The notes beneath the pieces were generated by a model that ran no database searches, was not told where the DNA came from, and worked only from the letters and a program-made list of their open reading frames with translations. Positions 54,723-62,604 of a DNA stretch of 64,000 nucleotides are shown piece by piece; position 1 is the stretch's first letter, and the number at the start of each line of letters is the position of its first letter. The translations under genes and the position numbers were made by a program. The stretch spans positions 1 through 64,000 of the forward strand of contig JACAER010000026.1 of the NCBI GenBank assembly GCA_013388745.1, read 5' to 3'. The DNA is from Chloroflexota bacterium. Lineage in GTDB: Bacteria; Chloroflexota; Anaerolineae; Aggregatilineales; Phototrophicaceae.

Positions 54723-57700
54723 TTAATCTTTGGAGGGCAGCACGTCGCGCGGCTTGCTGCCGCTTTCCGCCGGGCCGACCACGCCGCGTTCCTCCATCAG
54801 GTCGATCAAGCGGGCAGCGCGCGTATAACCGATGCGCAGCCGCCGCTGCAAGAGCGATACCGATGCCTTGTTCAGCTTGCGCACGAGATCGACAGCTTCT
54901 TCGTACATGTCGTCCTCGCCGTCGCCGTCGGCGTCTTCGATCTCGTCGTCATAGCCATCTTCATCTTCGTCTTCTCTGGCCGCGCCGCGATCACGATCCC
55001 AGAAGGCCTGCTGCATCGGGGGGGCGACACGCGGCGGCTGTGCGGGCGCGCTGGCCGAACGCGGCGGTGATGCCGGGTCGCTGGCGAGCGTCTTATCCAG
55101 CACCAACTGCGGCACAGACATCGGCCCGGCCTCGTCGGTCTGCTGTTTCCAGTAGCGCACGATGTTGCCGATTTCGATGTCGGAGACGTACACGCCCTGC
55201 AAGCGCACGGGCGCGGGCGAATCGCCGCTCATATAGAGCATATCGCCGCGTCCCAGCAGGCGTTCAGCGCCCGGCTGGTCGAGGATCACGCGGCTGTCTA
55301 CGCTGCTGGCGACAGCGAAGGCGATACGCGCCGGGAAGTTGGCTTTAATCAAACCGGTCACGACATCCACCGATGGGCGCTGCGTAGCGATCACCAGATG
55401 GATACCGGTGGCGCGTGCCAGCGCCGCGATACGGGTGATGACGCGCTCGGTTTCGTCCGGCGCCAGCATCATCAGGTCGGCCAATTCGTCGATGATGACG
55501 ATGATGTAGGGCATGAACTCGGCGTCGGGGGCCAGATGCTGGTTGAAGTCTTCGATATTGCGCGCGCCGGCCTGGCTGAAGCGTTTGTAGCGCTCGTCCA
55601 TTTCGCGCGTGACCCACTTGAGCACACCGACGATGCGTTCCAGTTCCACCACCACTGGCGCGATCAGATGCGGGATGCCGTTGTAACCCGTGAGTTCGAC
55701 GCGCTTGGGGTCTACCATGATGAACTTCAGGTGTTCCGGGCTGTTGCGCAGCACCAGACTGCTGATGATGGCGTTGACGCACACCGATTTACCGGAACCC
55801 GTCGTGCCGGCGATCAACAGATGCGGCATTGAGTCGAGATTCGCCGCCACAGGGGTGCCGTCCACACTCTGGCCCAGCGCGATCGTCAGCGGCGAGTCGA
55901 TTTTCTTAAACTCGTCCGAGTCCATCACATCGCGCAGGCTGACCAGCGCCGCTTCTTCGTTCGGCACTTCCACACCGACGAAGCCTTTGCCCGGCACCGG
56001 GGCTTCGATGCGGATCGATTTCGCGCCCAGCGCCAGTTGCAGGTCTTTGTCCAGCGCAGCGATCGCACTTACTTTGATGCGGTTCTTTTTGCCAGAACGC
56101 GACATCAGATAATCCGGCTCGACGCCGAACTGCGTAATCACCGGGCCGGTGTTGATCTCCACCACTTTACCGGGCGCGCCGAAGCTTTGCAGTGTTTCTT
56201 CGATGATGCGCGCGCGCTGCGACAAAAATTCACGGTCGAAATCCTGGTCAGAACCGCTGGCGAGCAGGGTTTGGAAATTCGGCAGTTTCCACTCGCGTTT
56301 GGGCTTGCGCACCGTTTGCGCCCCAAAAATCGAAGTGGGCGCGGCGGGCGCAGGCGCGGGCGGGGTATCCGGGTGCCCGGTGGGAATGCTGATTTTAGGG
56401 GCGGCGGCGACCGCCGGGCCGGCAGGCGCGAAAGCGCCTGGTTTTTTGTCCTCAGCTTCTTTTGCCCCGCCGCCGACCACGCTGGCGCTGACAGTCGCCG
56501 CCGGCTTATCGCTGTGTTCGCCAAAGCTGAAAGGCCGCACACGCGCCCCCATCCCTGCGGCGGGTGTTTCGCCCGGTTTGGCGGGAGTTTGGGCAGACTT
56601 CTCGCTTTCGCCTGGTTTTGTGCCGGCCAGCGGGGTAGTCGTGGCCGCAGGCGGCGTGGCCGTGCCAGAGCGCAGCGCGTTCAGGCGTTCCATGCGTTCC
56701 GATAGACTGCTGCCCGCGGGCGGCGCGACGGGCGGCGCGGCTTTTTGCGCCTCGTTTTCGCCGGCAGGCGTTGTGGCTGACGGCGAAAGCGGGCTGGCGG
56801 GGCGCGGCGCGGGGCCAAGCCCCTTGGGGCGCGCCGGCGATAAATCCAGGGCCGGCTCTTCTTCGTCTGTTTCGTCATCTTCGTCAAACGGACGCGGCAG
56901 CGGCGAAAGCGGCGCGGCAGCAGGCCGGCTGAACGGGCTGGGCGCGGCTGCCGCTGCCGAGCGTTCCGGCGCGCCGGGACGCAGCAGCTCACCCCGCCGC
57001 GCAGAGGGTTCTTCGCCGGGTTTGGCTGCCGCCGGCGGTGTCGTCGGCAGTGGGGGCGCAGCGGGACGCGGGGCTGTCACGGATGACGTGGGCGATGCAG
57101 GCGCGGCGCCGCCCGACGCTGGTTTTTCCGCGCCGGGACGGTTGAACAGACGGCTGGCGAGACTGCCGGCGGCCTGCTGGGTGCTGGCGGCAGGCGTGCT
57201 GGCTTCAGCGGGCTTGGATTCTGAGCGGCCAAACAAACGGCTGCTCAAGCTGGTCGCAGCGGCGGCAGCTTTTTCGCCCGGCGCGGATGTGACAGGCGGC
57301 GCGGCGGGCGTTTCTGTGCTGCTCTTGCCGCCCAACATGCCGCGCAAACGCGCGCCCACACCGCCACTGGGCGCTTCTTCTTCTTTTTTCTCTGGCGTGA
57401 TGCTGGCTGTCGCGGCAGGGATCGCCGGGCTGGGCGTCCCCGCCACACCGGGCGGACGCGGGGGCTGTGCGCCTTCGACCTTCAACATTTCGCTGCGGCC
57501 ACCCAAACGCATCGGAATACTGCGTTCTTCGGCGGGCGTCGTCGGCACGTTCATAGCGACAGACGTCGCAGCAGGCGCGGGCAGTGCCCCTGCGGGCGCT
57601 GCCGCTGGCAGCTCAGAAGGCGCGGGCCGGGACACGGCGATTTGTGGCGCGGCGGCCTGCTGTGCGGCGAGCGCCGCTTGCTGCGCAGCCCGCTGTGTCT

Positions 57701-59849
57701 GTAATTCCGCGATGCGTGCGCTGCGGCGCTGGCGCTGCCGTTTCAGCGAGTCGTTGAAGCTGCGCCACAGGCTGATAATCACGATGGCGACTTCTGATGC
57801 GCTCAGATCGGCGAACAGCATGAAGCCAATGAACATCCAGCCTAACACAGTGAAAAACGCGCCGACTTCGGTGATATTGCTGACGAGGAAATAATAAAGC
57901 TGCCCGCCAAGCCACCCACCGCCGGCACGATAGGCCTCATACGACACCTGCACCTGCATGCGCAGATCGTTCAGCGTTTGCACCGCGCGATCACCGGTGT
58001 AGTTCAGCGATTCGATAAACTGAAAAGCAACCAGCAGGCCGACGTAAATCATCACCACGCCGATCACACGCAGCGGTTCGATGACCGGCGCTTGATCGCC
58101 GAAATGTCGCATAATCAACCACAGGCCAACCACCAACAGGCCGACAGGCACGGCCAGCGCGCCCCAGCCCAACATACGCCCCAGCCACAGGTTAAGCTGC
58201 CCGGTGATCGCACCCTGATTGGTCGAAAGGGCGCTGAAGAACACGATCAGCGAAGCAAACACACACACCACACCCAGAATATCGAGCTTGGTGTCGAGGC
58301 TCATCCCCTCGCTTTTTCTGACTTCCGGCACTTTAGCGGCGCGCGGTTTTTTGCTGGCTTTGGCGTCTTTTCTGCCGAACAGTGGGAGACTTTGCGTCAA
58401 GGCGGCGAAACGCGCCCCCAGCCCGCCAGGAGCCGGTTTAGCGGCGGGTTTTGCGCTGCTGGCCGCGCCGCTTGTAGTCTGTGTGCCTGTCGCGCGCTGG
58501 CCGAACGGCGACTGCCTGGAAGCGCCCGCCGAGGGCAAGGGATTGCTGGGTGACGAGGGACGCACACCGCTGGGCGATGATGAGGTTGTCCCGCCGGGGC
58601 CGCCGGATGCGCCGTAGCGCGATGCGCCGCCGTAGCCGCTGCTCCCCGCGCCGGGGGACATCGGCGATGAGCCGGGACGCGCGCCGCTGTCGCCGGGTCT
58701 TTTCGGATCGTCTTTTTTTTCTTCGGTCTTGCCGCCGCCAAAGCGTGAGGCGATGCCGCTGGTCAGCCCGCTCAAACGCGCGCCGATGCCGCCACCGCCG
58801 TCGTCCTTTTTCGCGCCGGGTCTTTTCGGATCGTCTTTTTTTTCTTCGGTCTTGCCGCCGCCAAAGCGCGAGGCAAGGCCGCTGGTCAGCCCGCCCAAAC
58901 GCGCGCCGATGCCGCCACCGCCTTCGTCCTTTTTCGCGTCGGGTTTTTTGGTGTCTTTGTCTTTTTTATCGTCTTTTTTTTCTTCGCCGCCGCGCAGACC
59001 ACCGGCGACACCGCTCAAGCGCGCGCCAAAACCGCTCTGCGCCGGAGCATCTTTTTTCTCGTCGGTGGGCTTTTTAGGGTCAGCGCCGGGTTTGCGTTCT
59101 TCAGGCCTGCCGGATGTTTCCGCCGGGCTGCGCAGCGAACCGCTCAGTCCGCCGCTGCCGGGATAGCGCGCGCTGAGGTCGCCGCGGCTAATGGACGAGC
59201 CGGAAGACGAACCGGGCGCATCTGGGCTGCGTATCGGGCTGCCGGGCGCAGACGGACGCGCGCCGGGCGCGCCGCCGCCGCTGGAAGGATTGTAGCGTGG
59301 CACGGCGGGCTGTTCGCCTGTATCGCGGTTTGGGCCGACACTGCCGGGTAAACGCGATGACAAACCGCCGCCCGATGACGATCCGCTGCCGCTGGAAGGA
59401 TTGTAGCGCGGCGCGGCGGGCTGTTCGCCTGTATCGCGGTTTGGGCCGACACTGCCGGGTAAACGCGATGACAAACCGCCGCCCGACGATGACCCACTGC
59501 CGCCAGAGGGGCTAAAACGCGAACCGGGACTGCTGGGACTCTGGGGGCCGCCGGGCGATGACGGGCGCAGGCCGCTGCCAGAGCCGCTTCCCCCAGAACC
59601 TGCTTCGCTGCCACTGCCAAAACGGCTGCCATAAGCGCTGGAAGCGGCGCTCGAACCGGGCAGACCGGAACGCAAGCCACCCGACCCACTGCCAGAGCCG
59701 CTGCTGGTGTAGGGGCTGAAGCGTGAACGGTCTAGACGTGACCCTGCATCGTCATCGTCGTCTTCGTCCGCTTCTTCGTCGTCATCGACATCGCGATAAC
59801 GGTCGTCATCATCGTCGCGCGGATATTCGTCCTCACCAAAGCGACCCAT
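54723..59849 (-). CDS. ftsK: DNA translocase FtsK/SpoIIIE with very long low-complexity extension
   Basis: A 1708-residue chromosome translocase. Residues 1-515 are a charged, Ser/Gly/Pro-rich extension with internal repeats. Four to five membrane helices follow (about 525-690; LDILGVVCVFASLIVFFSAL first), then a second low-complexity linker (about 720-1190). The motor has Walker A GTTGSGKSV near 1352, followed by MVDPKRVEL and Walker B IIVIIDELADLMM. The C-terminal gamma domain (about 1630-1708; ARLIDLMEERGVVGPAESGS) reads polar DNA motifs. FtsK normally starts with its membrane helices and is about 750-1330 residues long, so a 515-residue cytoplasmic leader is unusual. The frame is consistently open and the repeats keep it. 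Confidence 0.9.
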   Translation of the reverse strand: MGRFGEDEYPRDDDDDRYRDVDDDEEADEDDDDDAGSRLDRSRFSPYTSSGSGSGSGGLRSGLPGSSAASSAYGSRFGSGSEAGSGGSGSGSGLRPSSPGGPQSPSSPGSRFSPSGGSGSSSGGGLSSRLPGSVGPNRDTGEQPAAPRYNPSSGSGSSSGGGLSSRLPGSVGPNRDTGEQPAVPRYNPSSGGGAPGARPSAPGSPIRSPDAPGSSSGSSISRGDLSARYPGSGGLSGSLRSPAETSGRPEERKPGADPKKPTDEKKDAPAQSGFGARLSGVAGGLRGGEEKKDDKKDKDTKKPDAKKDEGGGGIGARLGGLTSGLASRFGGGKTEEKKDDPKRPGAKKDDGGGGIGARLSGLTSGIASRFGGGKTEEKKDDPKRPGDSGARPGSSPMSPGAGSSGYGGASRYGASGGPGGTTSSSPSGVRPSSPSNPLPSAGASRQSPFGQRATGTQTTSGAASSAKPAAKPAPGGLGARFAALTQSLPLFGRKDAKASKKPRAAKVPEVRKSEGMSLDTKLDILGVVCVFASLIVFFSALSTNQGAITGQLNLWLGRMLGWGALAVPVGLLVVGLWLIMRHFGDQAPVIEPLRVIGVVMIYVGLLVAFQFIESLNYTGDRAVQTLNDLRMQVQVSYEAYRAGGGWLGGQLYYFLVSNITEVGAFFTVLGWMFIGFMLFADLSASEVAIVIISLWRSFNDSLKRQRQRRSARIAELQTQRAAQQAALAAQQAAAPQIAVSRPAPSELPAAAPAGALPAPAATSVAMNVPTTPAEERSIPMRLGGRSEMLKVEGAQPPRPPGVAGTPSPAIPAATASITPEKKEEEAPSGGVGARLRGMLGGKSSTETPAAPPVTSAPGEKAAAAATSLSSRLFGRSESKPAEASTPAASTQQAAGSLASRLFNRPGAEKPASGGAAPASPTSSVTAPRPAAPPLPTTPPAAAKPGEEPSARRGELLRPGAPERSAAAAAPSPFSRPAAAPLSPLPRPFDEDDETDEEEPALDLSPARPKGLGPAPRPASPLSPSATTPAGENEAQKAAPPVAPPAGSSLSERMERLNALRSGTATPPAATTTPLAGTKPGESEKSAQTPAKPGETPAAGMGARVRPFSFGEHSDKPAATVSASVVGGGAKEAEDKKPGAFAPAGPAVAAAPKISIPTGHPDTPPAPAPAAPTSIFGAQTVRKPKREWKLPNFQTLLASGSDQDFDREFLSQRARIIEETLQSFGAPGKVVEINTGPVITQFGVEPDYLMSRSGKKNRIKVSAIAALDKDLQLALGAKSIRIEAPVPGKGFVGVEVPNEEAALVSLRDVMDSDEFKKIDSPLTIALGQSVDGTPVAANLDSMPHLLIAGTTGSGKSVCVNAIISSLVLRNSPEHLKFIMVDPKRVELTGYNGIPHLIAPVVVELERIVGVLKWVTREMDERYKRFSQAGARNIEDFNQHLAPDAEFMPYIIVIIDELADLMMLAPDETERVITRIAALARATGIHLVIATQRPSVDVVTGLIKANFPARIAFAVASSVDSRVILDQPGAERLLGRGDMLYMSGDSPAPVRLQGVYVSDIEIGNIVRYWKQQTDEAGPMSVPQLVLDKTLASDPASPPRSASAPAQPPRVAPPMQQAFWDRDRGAAREDEDEDGYDDEIEDADGDGEDDMYEEAVDLVRKLNKASVSLLQRRLRIGYTRAARLIDLMEERGVVGPAESGSKPRDVLPSKD
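58690..59040 (-). repeat. Three tandem 123-bp repeats within ftsK
   Basis: A 41-codon unit encoding RLxGLTSGxASRFGGGKTEEKKDDPKRPG and a KKDxGGGGIGA linker occurs twice almost identically (period 123 bases, copies beginning near 58698 and 58821 on the + coordinate) and a third time in diverged form up to about 59040. The near identity at DNA level indicates recent duplication or gene conversion. Confidence 0.8.
59281..59502 (-). repeat. Two tandem 111-bp repeats within ftsK
   Basis: A 37-codon unit (SGSSSGGGLSSRLPGS, VGPNRDTGEQPA, PRYNPS) occurs twice with a 111-base period. The two copies differ at only a few positions. The period is a multiple of three, so copy-number change would keep the frame. 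Confidence 0.85.
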
Positions 59850-60514: not shown

Positions 60515-60545
60515 AAAAAAGCGAACAGGGGAGCGAAGTCCCCTG
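60515..60545 (-). terminator. Terminator of the kinase-receiver gene
   Basis: On the reverse strand the perfect stem CAGGGGA/TCCCCTG with a 6-base loop is followed within a few bases by TTTTTT, about 20 bases after the stop at 60564. It also lies just past the convergent gene at 60497. Confidence 0.6.
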
Positions 60546-60563
60546 CTGCGCCTGGCGGCGCTG

Positions 60564-62132
60564 CTAAATTGCCTCGGCGGGCGGCAGCGATTGCATTTCT
60601 TCCAGCAGAATGTGCCCGGCGCGCAGCGCCAGCAGCGCCGCCGCGTGCCGGTCTTTGGCGCCCAGTTTGTCCATCGCCCGCGCCAGTGTTTCAATCGCCA
60701 CAGGCGTCGAAAGCCGCATATAACGCGCGATCGCTTCAGTTTCGTAGCCTGCCGCCACACACAGCAGCACTTTGCGCTCGTTGTCGTCCAGTTTGTCGCG
60801 CGTGCCATCGGTCAGCAGTCCGCTGACAATGCGTTCGGCCACGCCGCGCCCCAGCACAAGCTGCCCCTGCGTGACTTTGAGGATACCGTCTACGAATTCG
60901 CTTTCGTCGGCGGATTTGAGCATGTAACCGTGGGCGCCGGCACGCAGCGCCCGCACGATGTAGGCGTCTTCGTCGCGCCCGGTGAGGATCAGCACTTTGA
61001 CGCTGGGGGCTTTGGCGCGCACTACCGGAACGACTTCCAGCCCGGTTTTAAGCGGCATATTCAAATCGAGCACCAGCACATCCGGCAGGATCGAGAGCGT
61101 TTGTTGCAGCGCCGCCTCGCCGTCGGCGGCTTCGGCCACGACGACAAAATCGTCGCGCGTTTCCAGAAAACTCGCCAGCGTTTTGCGCAGAATCGTATGG
61201 TCGTCCGCCAGAATGATGCGCAGCGCCGGACGCGCGGCGCGCACCGGCGGTGGTGTGCGGTCAGATTGTAGTGTCAGCGAGTCGAGGGCGGCGCTGGGTG
61301 GTTCGAGCTTGACTTTATCGTCGTCGTCTTTGGCCGGCGCGATCACCACTGAAAGCGCGGTTGCCAGTGCCTTGCAGCTCTGGAAACGGCGTACAGGGTT
61401 TTTCTCCAGCGCCCTCAGGATCGCGCTTTCCAGCACTATCGGCAGTTCGGGCACAATCAAACGCGGCGGCGGCGGCGGCTGTTTGACCTGTTGCAGCAGC
61501 AGCGCCGAAATATCGTCGGCGTTAAACGGCAGTTGGCCGGTCGCCAGTTCGTACAGCACGATACCCAGCGAATAAATATCCGTGCGGTGATCGAGCGGCA
61601 AACCCTGTGCCTGTTCGGGCGACAAATACGCCGGCGTGCCGATCACCATGCCGTGCGCCGTCACGCGCTTGGCTTCGCGCGGCAGCGCCAGCCCCAGATC
61701 CATGATCTTCACCCGGCCTTCGGACGTGACTTTGATATTGGCCGGCTTGATATCGCGGTGAATGATCTGCCGATCATGGGCGTATTGCAGCGCCAGGGCG
61801 ATCTGTTGGCCGAGATCGACAATTACTTCCGGCGTGGAGCGCAAGTAATATGACAGGGGCACGCCATCCACATATTCGACCACCAAATACGGCTGTTCGT
61901 CGTCTTCGCCGATGTCGTAGATGGCCATGATGTTGGGGTGGTTCAACTGCGCCGCGGCCTGCGCTTCCTGAAAAAAGCGTTTGCGCGTTGTATCGCGCAC
62001 GTGTGGCAGCAGCACCTTCAAGGCCACCTCGCGGCTCAGGCGGGTATCGAGCGCCTTATAGACGGTAGCGGTAGACCCGTCCCCCAGATGCTCGGTGATC
62101 TCATAACGATTGTGGATTTTGCGTCCGATCAT
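60564..62132 (-). CDS. Ser/Thr protein kinase fused to receiver and LuxR-type HTH
   Basis: A 522-residue fusion. Residues 8-270 are a complete eukaryotic-type kinase: glycine loop LGDGSTATVYKA, Lys in VALKVL, catalytic loop HRDIKPANIKV near residue 125, MDLGLA in place of DFG, and APE-like SPEQAQG. After a linker, residues 305-430 are a receiver domain with ADDH, the phospho-acceptor Asp in VLDLNMP near residue 357, ILTGR and the conserved Lys in MLKSA. Residues 445-510 are a NarL/LuxR-type HTH (DDNERKVLLCVAAGYETEAIARYMRLS). No membrane segment is present. It could join phosphorylation on Ser/Thr and Asp to direct DNA binding. The start at 62132 is the family start but lacks a clear ribosome site. 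Confidence 0.92.
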   Translation of the reverse strand: MIGRKIHNRYEITEHLGDGSTATVYKALDTRLSREVALKVLLPHVRDTTRKRFFQEAQAAAQLNHPNIMAIYDIGEDDEQPYLVVEYVDGVPLSYYLRSTPEVIVDLGQQIALALQYAHDRQIIHRDIKPANIKVTSEGRVKIMDLGLALPREAKRVTAHGMVIGTPAYLSPEQAQGLPLDHRTDIYSLGIVLYELATGQLPFNADDISALLLQQVKQPPPPPRLIVPELPIVLESAILRALEKNPVRRFQSCKALATALSVVIAPAKDDDDKVKLEPPSAALDSLTLQSDRTPPPVRAARPALRIILADDHTILRKTLASFLETRDDFVVVAEAADGEAALQQTLSILPDVLVLDLNMPLKTGLEVVPVVRAKAPSVKVLILTGRDEDAYIVRALRAGAHGYMLKSADESEFVDGILKVTQGQLVLGRGVAERIVSGLLTDGTRDKLDDNERKVLLCVAAGYETEAIARYMRLSTPVAIETLARAMDKLGAKDRHAAALLALRAGHILLEEMQSLPPAEAI

Positions 62133-62211
62133 AGAGTTTTGTTGAGATTGTCGATCTATAACGGATAGCATACCACACGCAGCGCAAGCCTGCATCCCCA
62201 GAGCTGGTGAT

Positions 62212-62250
62212 TCATAACAAAACGCCGACAGGAAGCCTGCCGGCGTCGGG
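62212..62250 (-). terminator. Terminator of the ABM-fold gene
   Basis: On the reverse strand ACGCCGGCAGG pairs with CCTGTCGGCGT (one mismatch, 3-base loop) and is followed by TTTTGTTAT, about 20 bases past the stop at 62269. Confidence 0.75.
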
Positions 62251-62268: not shown

Positions 62269-62604
62269 TTACGAGACGCGCGCGACAGCCGCGGCTTCTT
62301 GCGGCTGCGTTGTCACCCGCACGATATATCCCTGCCGTTCGATGCGCAGTCCGGGGAGGCGGGCCGCGATCGACTGCTCCGAGCCTTGCAGACTCAGGGT
62401 GTGGCGCGCATTTTCCAGCGCCTGTTGGCTGTCCCAGAAGATCACAAGCTGGGCACGGTCAAGATCGTCAATTTGTTCCAGCAGATGGGCAGCGATGAAA
62501 CCCGGACGCAGACTCACGTTGGGCAGATACTCTTTTTCGATGAACAGGCGGAGTTGGCCGATTTGTCCCTCTGGGACTCGCAGGTGCGTGACTTGCGCAT
62601 ACAT
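62269..62604 (-). CDS. ABM-domain (ferredoxin-like barrel) protein
   Basis: A 111-residue protein with the layout of antibiotic-biosynthesis-monooxygenase-fold dimeric barrels: strand MYAQVTHLRVPEGQ, helix QLRLFIEKEYLP, strand PGFIAAHLLEQ, strand AQLVIFWDSQQALENA and a final helix/strand pair. The fold is found in haem-degrading enzymes, quinol monooxygenases and stress proteins; the ligand is not evident. A textbook AGGAGG lies 8 bases before the ATG. It sits just upstream (same strand) of the kinase-receiver gene but has its own terminator. Confidence 0.7.
   Translation of the reverse strand: MYAQVTHLRVPEGQIGQLRLFIEKEYLPNVSLRPGFIAAHLLEQIDDLDRAQLVIFWDSQQALENARHTLSLQGSEQSIAARLPGLRIERQGYIVRVTTQPQEAAAVARVS

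Follow-up and report, generated by a model that had tools for sequence, protein, structure and literature searches.

A Ser/Thr kinase fused to a response regulator with a diverged HTH: a possible single-protein converter of His-Asp into Ser/Thr signals

Links between two-component and Ser/Thr-kinase signaling usually involve separate proteins, with a single substrate at a time. Single proteins that mix modules of both systems are already known (HstK and Rim15), as are Ser/Thr kinases that act on separate NarL-family regulators. HstK-type cyanobacterial proteins (cited in PMC2176072) consist of a Ser/Thr kinase fused to a histidine kinase, and GAF domains are often present as well. Fungal Rim15 is a protein kinase with a C-terminal receiver of unsettled role that is without the Asp in Ascomycota (PMC8510515). 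For PknB-type kinases, dimerization of the N-lobe is the reported route to activation (PMC6213207). Among open-licence papers we found no description of a kinase-receiver-GerE architecture or of a disarmed-HTH family of this kind, although it may figure in some published census of response-regulator outputs.

Domains of the fusion protein

The gene considered here lies on the minus strand of the window (the whole 64,000-nucleotide stretch of DNA that was analysed). The first-pass annotation had described a single 522-residue frame with a kinase, a receiver and an HTH-like end, and this frame is confirmed. In the Pfam search that it had suggested, Pkinase and Response_reg lie far above their cut-offs and GerE falls just under its own. 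The features are as follows.

60564-62132, minus strand: complete fusion gene, 522 amino acids; ATG at 62132, stop codon at 60566-60564; start backed by orthologs
61341-62105, minus strand: PknB-type Ser/Thr kinase domain, residues 10-264 (Pfam Pkinase, 162 bits; about 40% identity to PknB; modelled helices and strands to residue 264)
61752-61760, minus strand: catalytic HRD motif, residues 125-127, invariant in 36 orthologs
61635-61661, minus strand: activation loop from T158 to GT166, with two threonines (T158 and T166) that do not vary among 36 orthologs and may be autophosphorylated; T158 aligned with the T of PknB's SVT
61224-61340, minus strand: variable and disordered linker, residues 265-303 (pLDDT below 50 for 267-300; mean identity 0.30; length 24-55 in orthologs)
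60873-61223, minus strand: receiver domain, residues 304-420 (Pfam Response_reg, 84.7 bits; fold matches NarL, VraR and DesR receivers)
61179-61181, minus strand: T318, in helix alpha1 of the receiver, a candidate acceptor for the kinase
61065-61067, minus strand: Asp356, predicted phospho-acceptor, invariant in 36 orthologs
60615-60794, minus strand: C-terminal domain derived from GerE, residues 447-506, which probably does not bind DNA in the conventional way (four-helix fold predicted)
60663-60707, minus strand: residues 476-490, once the recognition helix and now without its basic contacts (alignment to controls and PDB alignment)
62221-62247, minus strand: terminator-like hairpin separating the fusion gene from the gene upstream of it, 12-pair stem followed by a T-rich tail
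60524-60547, minus strand: terminator-like hairpin 16 bases past the stop codon, 9-pair stem followed by CGCTTTTTT

The start at 62132 is common to the orthologs; an alternative in-frame ATG lies 21 codons upstream, at 62195. Hairpins on both sides, on the same strand as the fusion gene, are consistent with its being transcribed alone, although terminator-like sites are in only slight excess over shuffled sequence (four found against 2.9 expected) and constitute weak evidence. Just upstream (62269-62604, minus strand, beyond the first hairpin) is a small protein that by eye resembles antibiotic-biosynthesis-monooxygenase-type proteins. Elsewhere in the window, positions 54723-59849 (minus strand) encode a 1708-residue FtsK/SpoIIIE-like translocase whose translation, read by eye, begins with a very long low-complexity region rich in Gly, Ser, Pro and Ala.

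Among solved structures, those of PknB, Stk1 and PknA are nearest to the kinase. K39, E56, the HRD motif (125-127), N132 and D145 are invariant across the 36 aligned orthologs, and DLG stands where DFG is usual, with DxG and the activation-segment residues present. The earlier description of an apparently active eukaryotic-type kinase therefore holds as a prediction, all catalytic residues being kept in the 36 orthologs, as does that of a kinase without a membrane anchor, since the highest 19-residue hydropathy is 1.34 and there is no transmembrane segment. A Pfam scan of the fusion protein returned neither PASTA repeats nor a histidine kinase domain, and the protein scores 324 bits against NCBIfam NF033483, below the cut-off of 450. 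The PknB dimer residues, identified with the help of PDB mutant names as R10, L33 and D76, align with R9, L32 and D73 of the fusion kinase, of which R9 and L32 are invariant and D73 at least 90% conserved in the orthologs. Nine other kinases of the same genome keep R9 in one case and L32 in three, a contrast that is only suggestive as these kinases belong to other subfamilies.

Conservation is uneven along the chain. Mean column identity over the 36 orthologs is highest in the kinase (0.757), followed by the receiver (0.705) and the C-terminal domain (0.58); the alpha10 region (residues 489 to 515) stands at 0.66 and the recognition helix, the least conserved structured part of the protein, at 0.45. 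How the structure model places the domains relative to one another is unreliable, given the disordered linker and a pTM of 0.70.

Distribution, inheritance and independent fusions

The first-pass annotation had presented the fusion as genuine and had named its absence from close relatives as a possible refutation. Among 61 genomes (the window's own and relatives), 45 have a match at E<=1e-70 and 39 carry the full-length fusion in one frame, one of them (G058) read from two adjacent pieces; the other six matches are partial, mostly at contig ends. The gene is present, usually as a single copy, in five of the eight families of the order (f1, f3, f4, f7 and f8), and the named records that carry it are Anaerolineae, Aggregatilineales and Phototrophicales MAGs. 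The architecture is thus present in relatives and the claim of a genuine fusion is upheld. An assembly or frameshift artefact joining two genes is ruled out by the recurrence of the same single frame in 39 genomes and is hardly credible on a second count, in that a receiver-half search (E<=1e-38) found no standalone ortholog of that half, its sole other match being a 41%-identical paralog, a regulator of canonical type encoded beside a histidine kinase.

Kinase half and regulator half each form a clade (100/99), and both trees split f1 from f3, f4, f7 and f8. These matching splits in the sequence trees are as expected from vertical inheritance. In the window's family, genomes of genera without the fusion (G002, G011, G017, G019, G033 and G035) hold 10-21 kinase candidates, compared with about 65-190 otherwise; loss of the fusion goes with a shrunken kinome.

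Outside the order, kinase-receiver-GerE fusions with canonical HTHs were found in G062 and G297, of the same class, and in G680, of another class. Each falls outside the window protein's family in the trees, G297 and G680 with weak support or long branches. The G062 fusion clearly appears independent, since its regulator half shares 68-74% identity with standalone regulators from other families; its kinase groups with another kinase of the G062 genome (100/98). A single origin for all such fusions is unsupported by the trees and the G062 identities, and the architecture has by this evidence arisen independently at least once more, probably three more times. The earlier remark that these domains normally belong to separate proteins is broadly right and needs to be qualified by this recurrence.

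In G680, 45 bases lie between the fusion and a large NarX-type histidine-kinase gene upstream of it, an arrangement that hints directly at histidine kinases as the source of input to such receivers. The upstream gene (L136:1121-6916) is a 1373-residue open reading frame with a beta-propeller-like region and a C-terminal NarX-type histidine kinase. As the G680 fusion keeps a canonical HTH, the architecture alone does not imply kinase output, and the transcription-factor model of the first-pass annotation may hold for the G062, G297 and G680 proteins. A different combination occurs in the window's own genome (L134:579-2261; G000:C32:138078-139760), where a Ser/Thr kinase, a degenerate NarX-type histidine-kinase-like middle region, with the phospho-His replaced by Glu as read by eye, and a canonical GerE domain (82 bits) are fused; this type is present in only two of 41 genomes searched.

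Receiver and C-terminal domain

The receiver does have all its conserved residues, as had been claimed: D310, D311, D356 and K406 are invariant in the 36 orthologs and position 384 holds T in 35 of them, with S in the remaining one, completing the DD, D, T, K set. Retention of all the Asp-phosphorylation residues implies a His-Asp input.

The C-terminal half as a whole matches the folds of full-length VraR, ChrA, LiaR and NarL, the first three best, and a C-terminal domain of four helices, with a short fifth one, appears in both structure predictions. GerE is matched at E<=0.01 in 35 of 36 orthologs (best 1e-9), marking the domain as a diverged relative. The window protein itself scores 21.6 bits, below the curated cut-off of 23.5, where nine sampled receiver-bearing controls score 52-79 and the kinase-GerE protein L134 scores 82; its sequence resembles solved HTH domains only marginally (best E 0.019), against 7e-16 for the same region of the G062 fusion. 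The recognition-helix register is gap-free in the PDB alignment to VraR and GerE, and NarL numbering is the residue number minus 292 (NCBIfam NarL alignment and control alignment). Lys or Arg occupies the NarL-K188 position in none of the 36 orthologs and in 14 of 17 control regulators; in our alignment this position coincides with RcsB K180, reported as a base contact (PMC5829831). The position directly after it is Glu in 26 of 36 orthologs, His190 is kept in one of 36 as opposed to 14 of 17 controls, and the mean charge of residues 473-486 is -1.2 in orthologs and +0.6 in controls. FixJ-like relatives such as L111 are also without K188, with other basic residues kept.

Taken together, the sub-threshold GerE score, the lost basic residues and a helix that is acidic on average make DNA binding by this domain doubtful. 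Of the NarL/LuxR-type HTH that had been proposed, the origin and predicted fold stand and the DNA-contact residues do not; DNA binding as the output, which that proposal implied, is not supported, since every one of the 36 orthologs has lost the basic contacts. DNA might still be bound in an unusual way without them, and a NarL-type regulator of unusual specificity, or one binding with a partner, would be consistent with the intact scaffold, a recognition helix free of indels and conserved hydrophobic core positions. We consider this quite unlikely, as the new consensus, V-I-E-x-x-A, is found mainly in the window's own family and the order's other families differ at these positions, leaving no shared new set of contacts.

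Within the receiver and C-terminal domain, only T318, the switch residue T384 and S407 are Ser or Thr in at least 75% of orthologs. S407 directly follows the catalytic Lys, at a position that varies among many regulators, and T318 (Ser or Thr in 30 of 36 orthologs, Gly in 13 of 14 standalone response regulators) is the sole lineage-specific candidate acceptor. The first-pass annotation had supposed that the kinase phosphorylates its own receiver or HTH. For the receiver, these three residues are candidates, although T318 is not invariant; for the HTH the proposal is without a conserved acceptor, no position of the C-terminal domain holding a conserved Ser or Thr in the 36 orthologs, which weakens the case for kinase control of DNA binding through the HTH. 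This bears on the model of a transcription factor with its own kinase, in which Ser/Thr phosphorylation of receiver or HTH would tune DNA binding. That model draws on the NarL-family regulators VraR and DosR, phosphorylated by separate Ser/Thr kinases with a change in DNA binding (PMC4601284), on the retained four-helix scaffold predicted here, on the preference for Ser or Thr at 318 and on the canonical HTHs of the three fusions outside the order. For the present family we judge it unlikely, given an acidic recognition helix without basic residues, a GerE score below cut-off and a C-terminal domain without a conserved Ser or Thr.

Position 318 also lends itself to another reading, that of a convergence protein whose kinase and receiver work jointly. 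Here T318 phosphorylation in alpha1 would modulate Asp phosphorylation and dimerization of the receiver, and the C-terminal domain would deliver the output by contacting other proteins instead of DNA. The lineage-specific Ser/Thr and the conservation of alpha10 and the C-terminal extension within the family speak for it; however, six of 36 orthologs are without Ser or Thr at 318, and the conserved catalytic residues of the kinase suggest external substrates too. We likewise regard it as improbable.

A proposed converter and its relation to known systems

Our preferred reading is that the protein is a cytoplasmic converter in which the Asp-phosphorylated receiver controls dimerization, and so kinase activity, to which we would give a little under an even chance. 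Its basis lies in what the sequence shows: the gene is a fusion that has been vertically inherited, the catalytic residues are intact, the DNA-contact residues are lost and the PknB dimer residues are retained. The direction of the signal, the dimer switch and the substrates are what we infer from these. Intact chemistry and the highest conservation in the chain imply kinase activity as the output, and the divergence of the HTH argues against transcription as the main one. NarL-type regulators dimerize through the receiver and alpha10. Activation of PknB-type kinases by N-lobe dimerization, the kept dimer residues and this NarL-type dimerization together favour a phosphorylation-gated dimer switch. 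In RcsB, helix alpha10 contributes to the contact that the HTHs make in the dimer (PMC5829831).

In this proposal, a NarL-type response regulator would have joined a PknB-type kinase in an ancestor of much of the order, with conventional DNA binding being lost. An unlinked histidine kinase, or a small phosphodonor, would phosphorylate Asp356, and the receiver and GerE-derived four-helix domain would then change dimer state, bringing two kinase domains together for mutual phosphorylation of their activation loops (T158/T166). The active kinase would phosphorylate other proteins and possibly also, as feedback, T318 of its own receiver. The full claim, that a NarL-type module with a disarmed HTH switches its fused PknB-type kinase on or off upon Asp phosphorylation, as a one-protein His-Asp to Ser/Thr converter vertically inherited in much of the order, is tentative, and we think the balance leans somewhat against it. 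Gene context speaks against the converter: a simple regular-expression motif screen of 28 scored loci found no histidine kinase close beside the family's genes (one lay 4.6 kb off), and clustering of 29 neighbourhoods gave no operon partner, no gene besides the fusion being common to more than four loci, so that synteny indicates no pathway.

With the active sites of both systems intact in one conserved chain, direct coupling in either direction becomes testable on a single purified protein. From the diverged HTH one would also learn how the output domain of a response regulator can be reused once DNA binding is given up and, if the converter model is true, a bacterial lineage has turned a transcription factor into a kinase regulatory subunit.

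With the Hanks-type kinases PknB and StkP the protein shares about 40% kinase-domain identity, catalytic motifs, activation-loop threonines and dimer residues, but in contrast to the PASTA kinases (PknB/StkP, Stk1) it is a fusion without a transmembrane segment or PASTA sensor, and a response regulator takes the sensor's place. The NarL/FixJ regulators VraR, DesR, NarL and RcsB have the same full set of receiver phosphorylation residues and the same order of receiver and four-helix C-terminal domain, whereas here this unit is fused behind a kinase, has lost the basic residues of its recognition helix and scores below the GerE cut-off. HstK also unites Ser/Thr and two-component modules in a single protein, its partner being a histidine kinase where ours is a response regulator. 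Rim15 matches the domain order of kinase and then C-terminal receiver, by analogy only, and differs in being eukaryotic and without an HTH-derived domain. Finally, Stk1-VraR and PknH-DosR exemplify the same cross-talk of Ser/Thr kinases with NarL-family regulators (PMC4601284), in their case between two separate proteins with functional DNA-binding domains.
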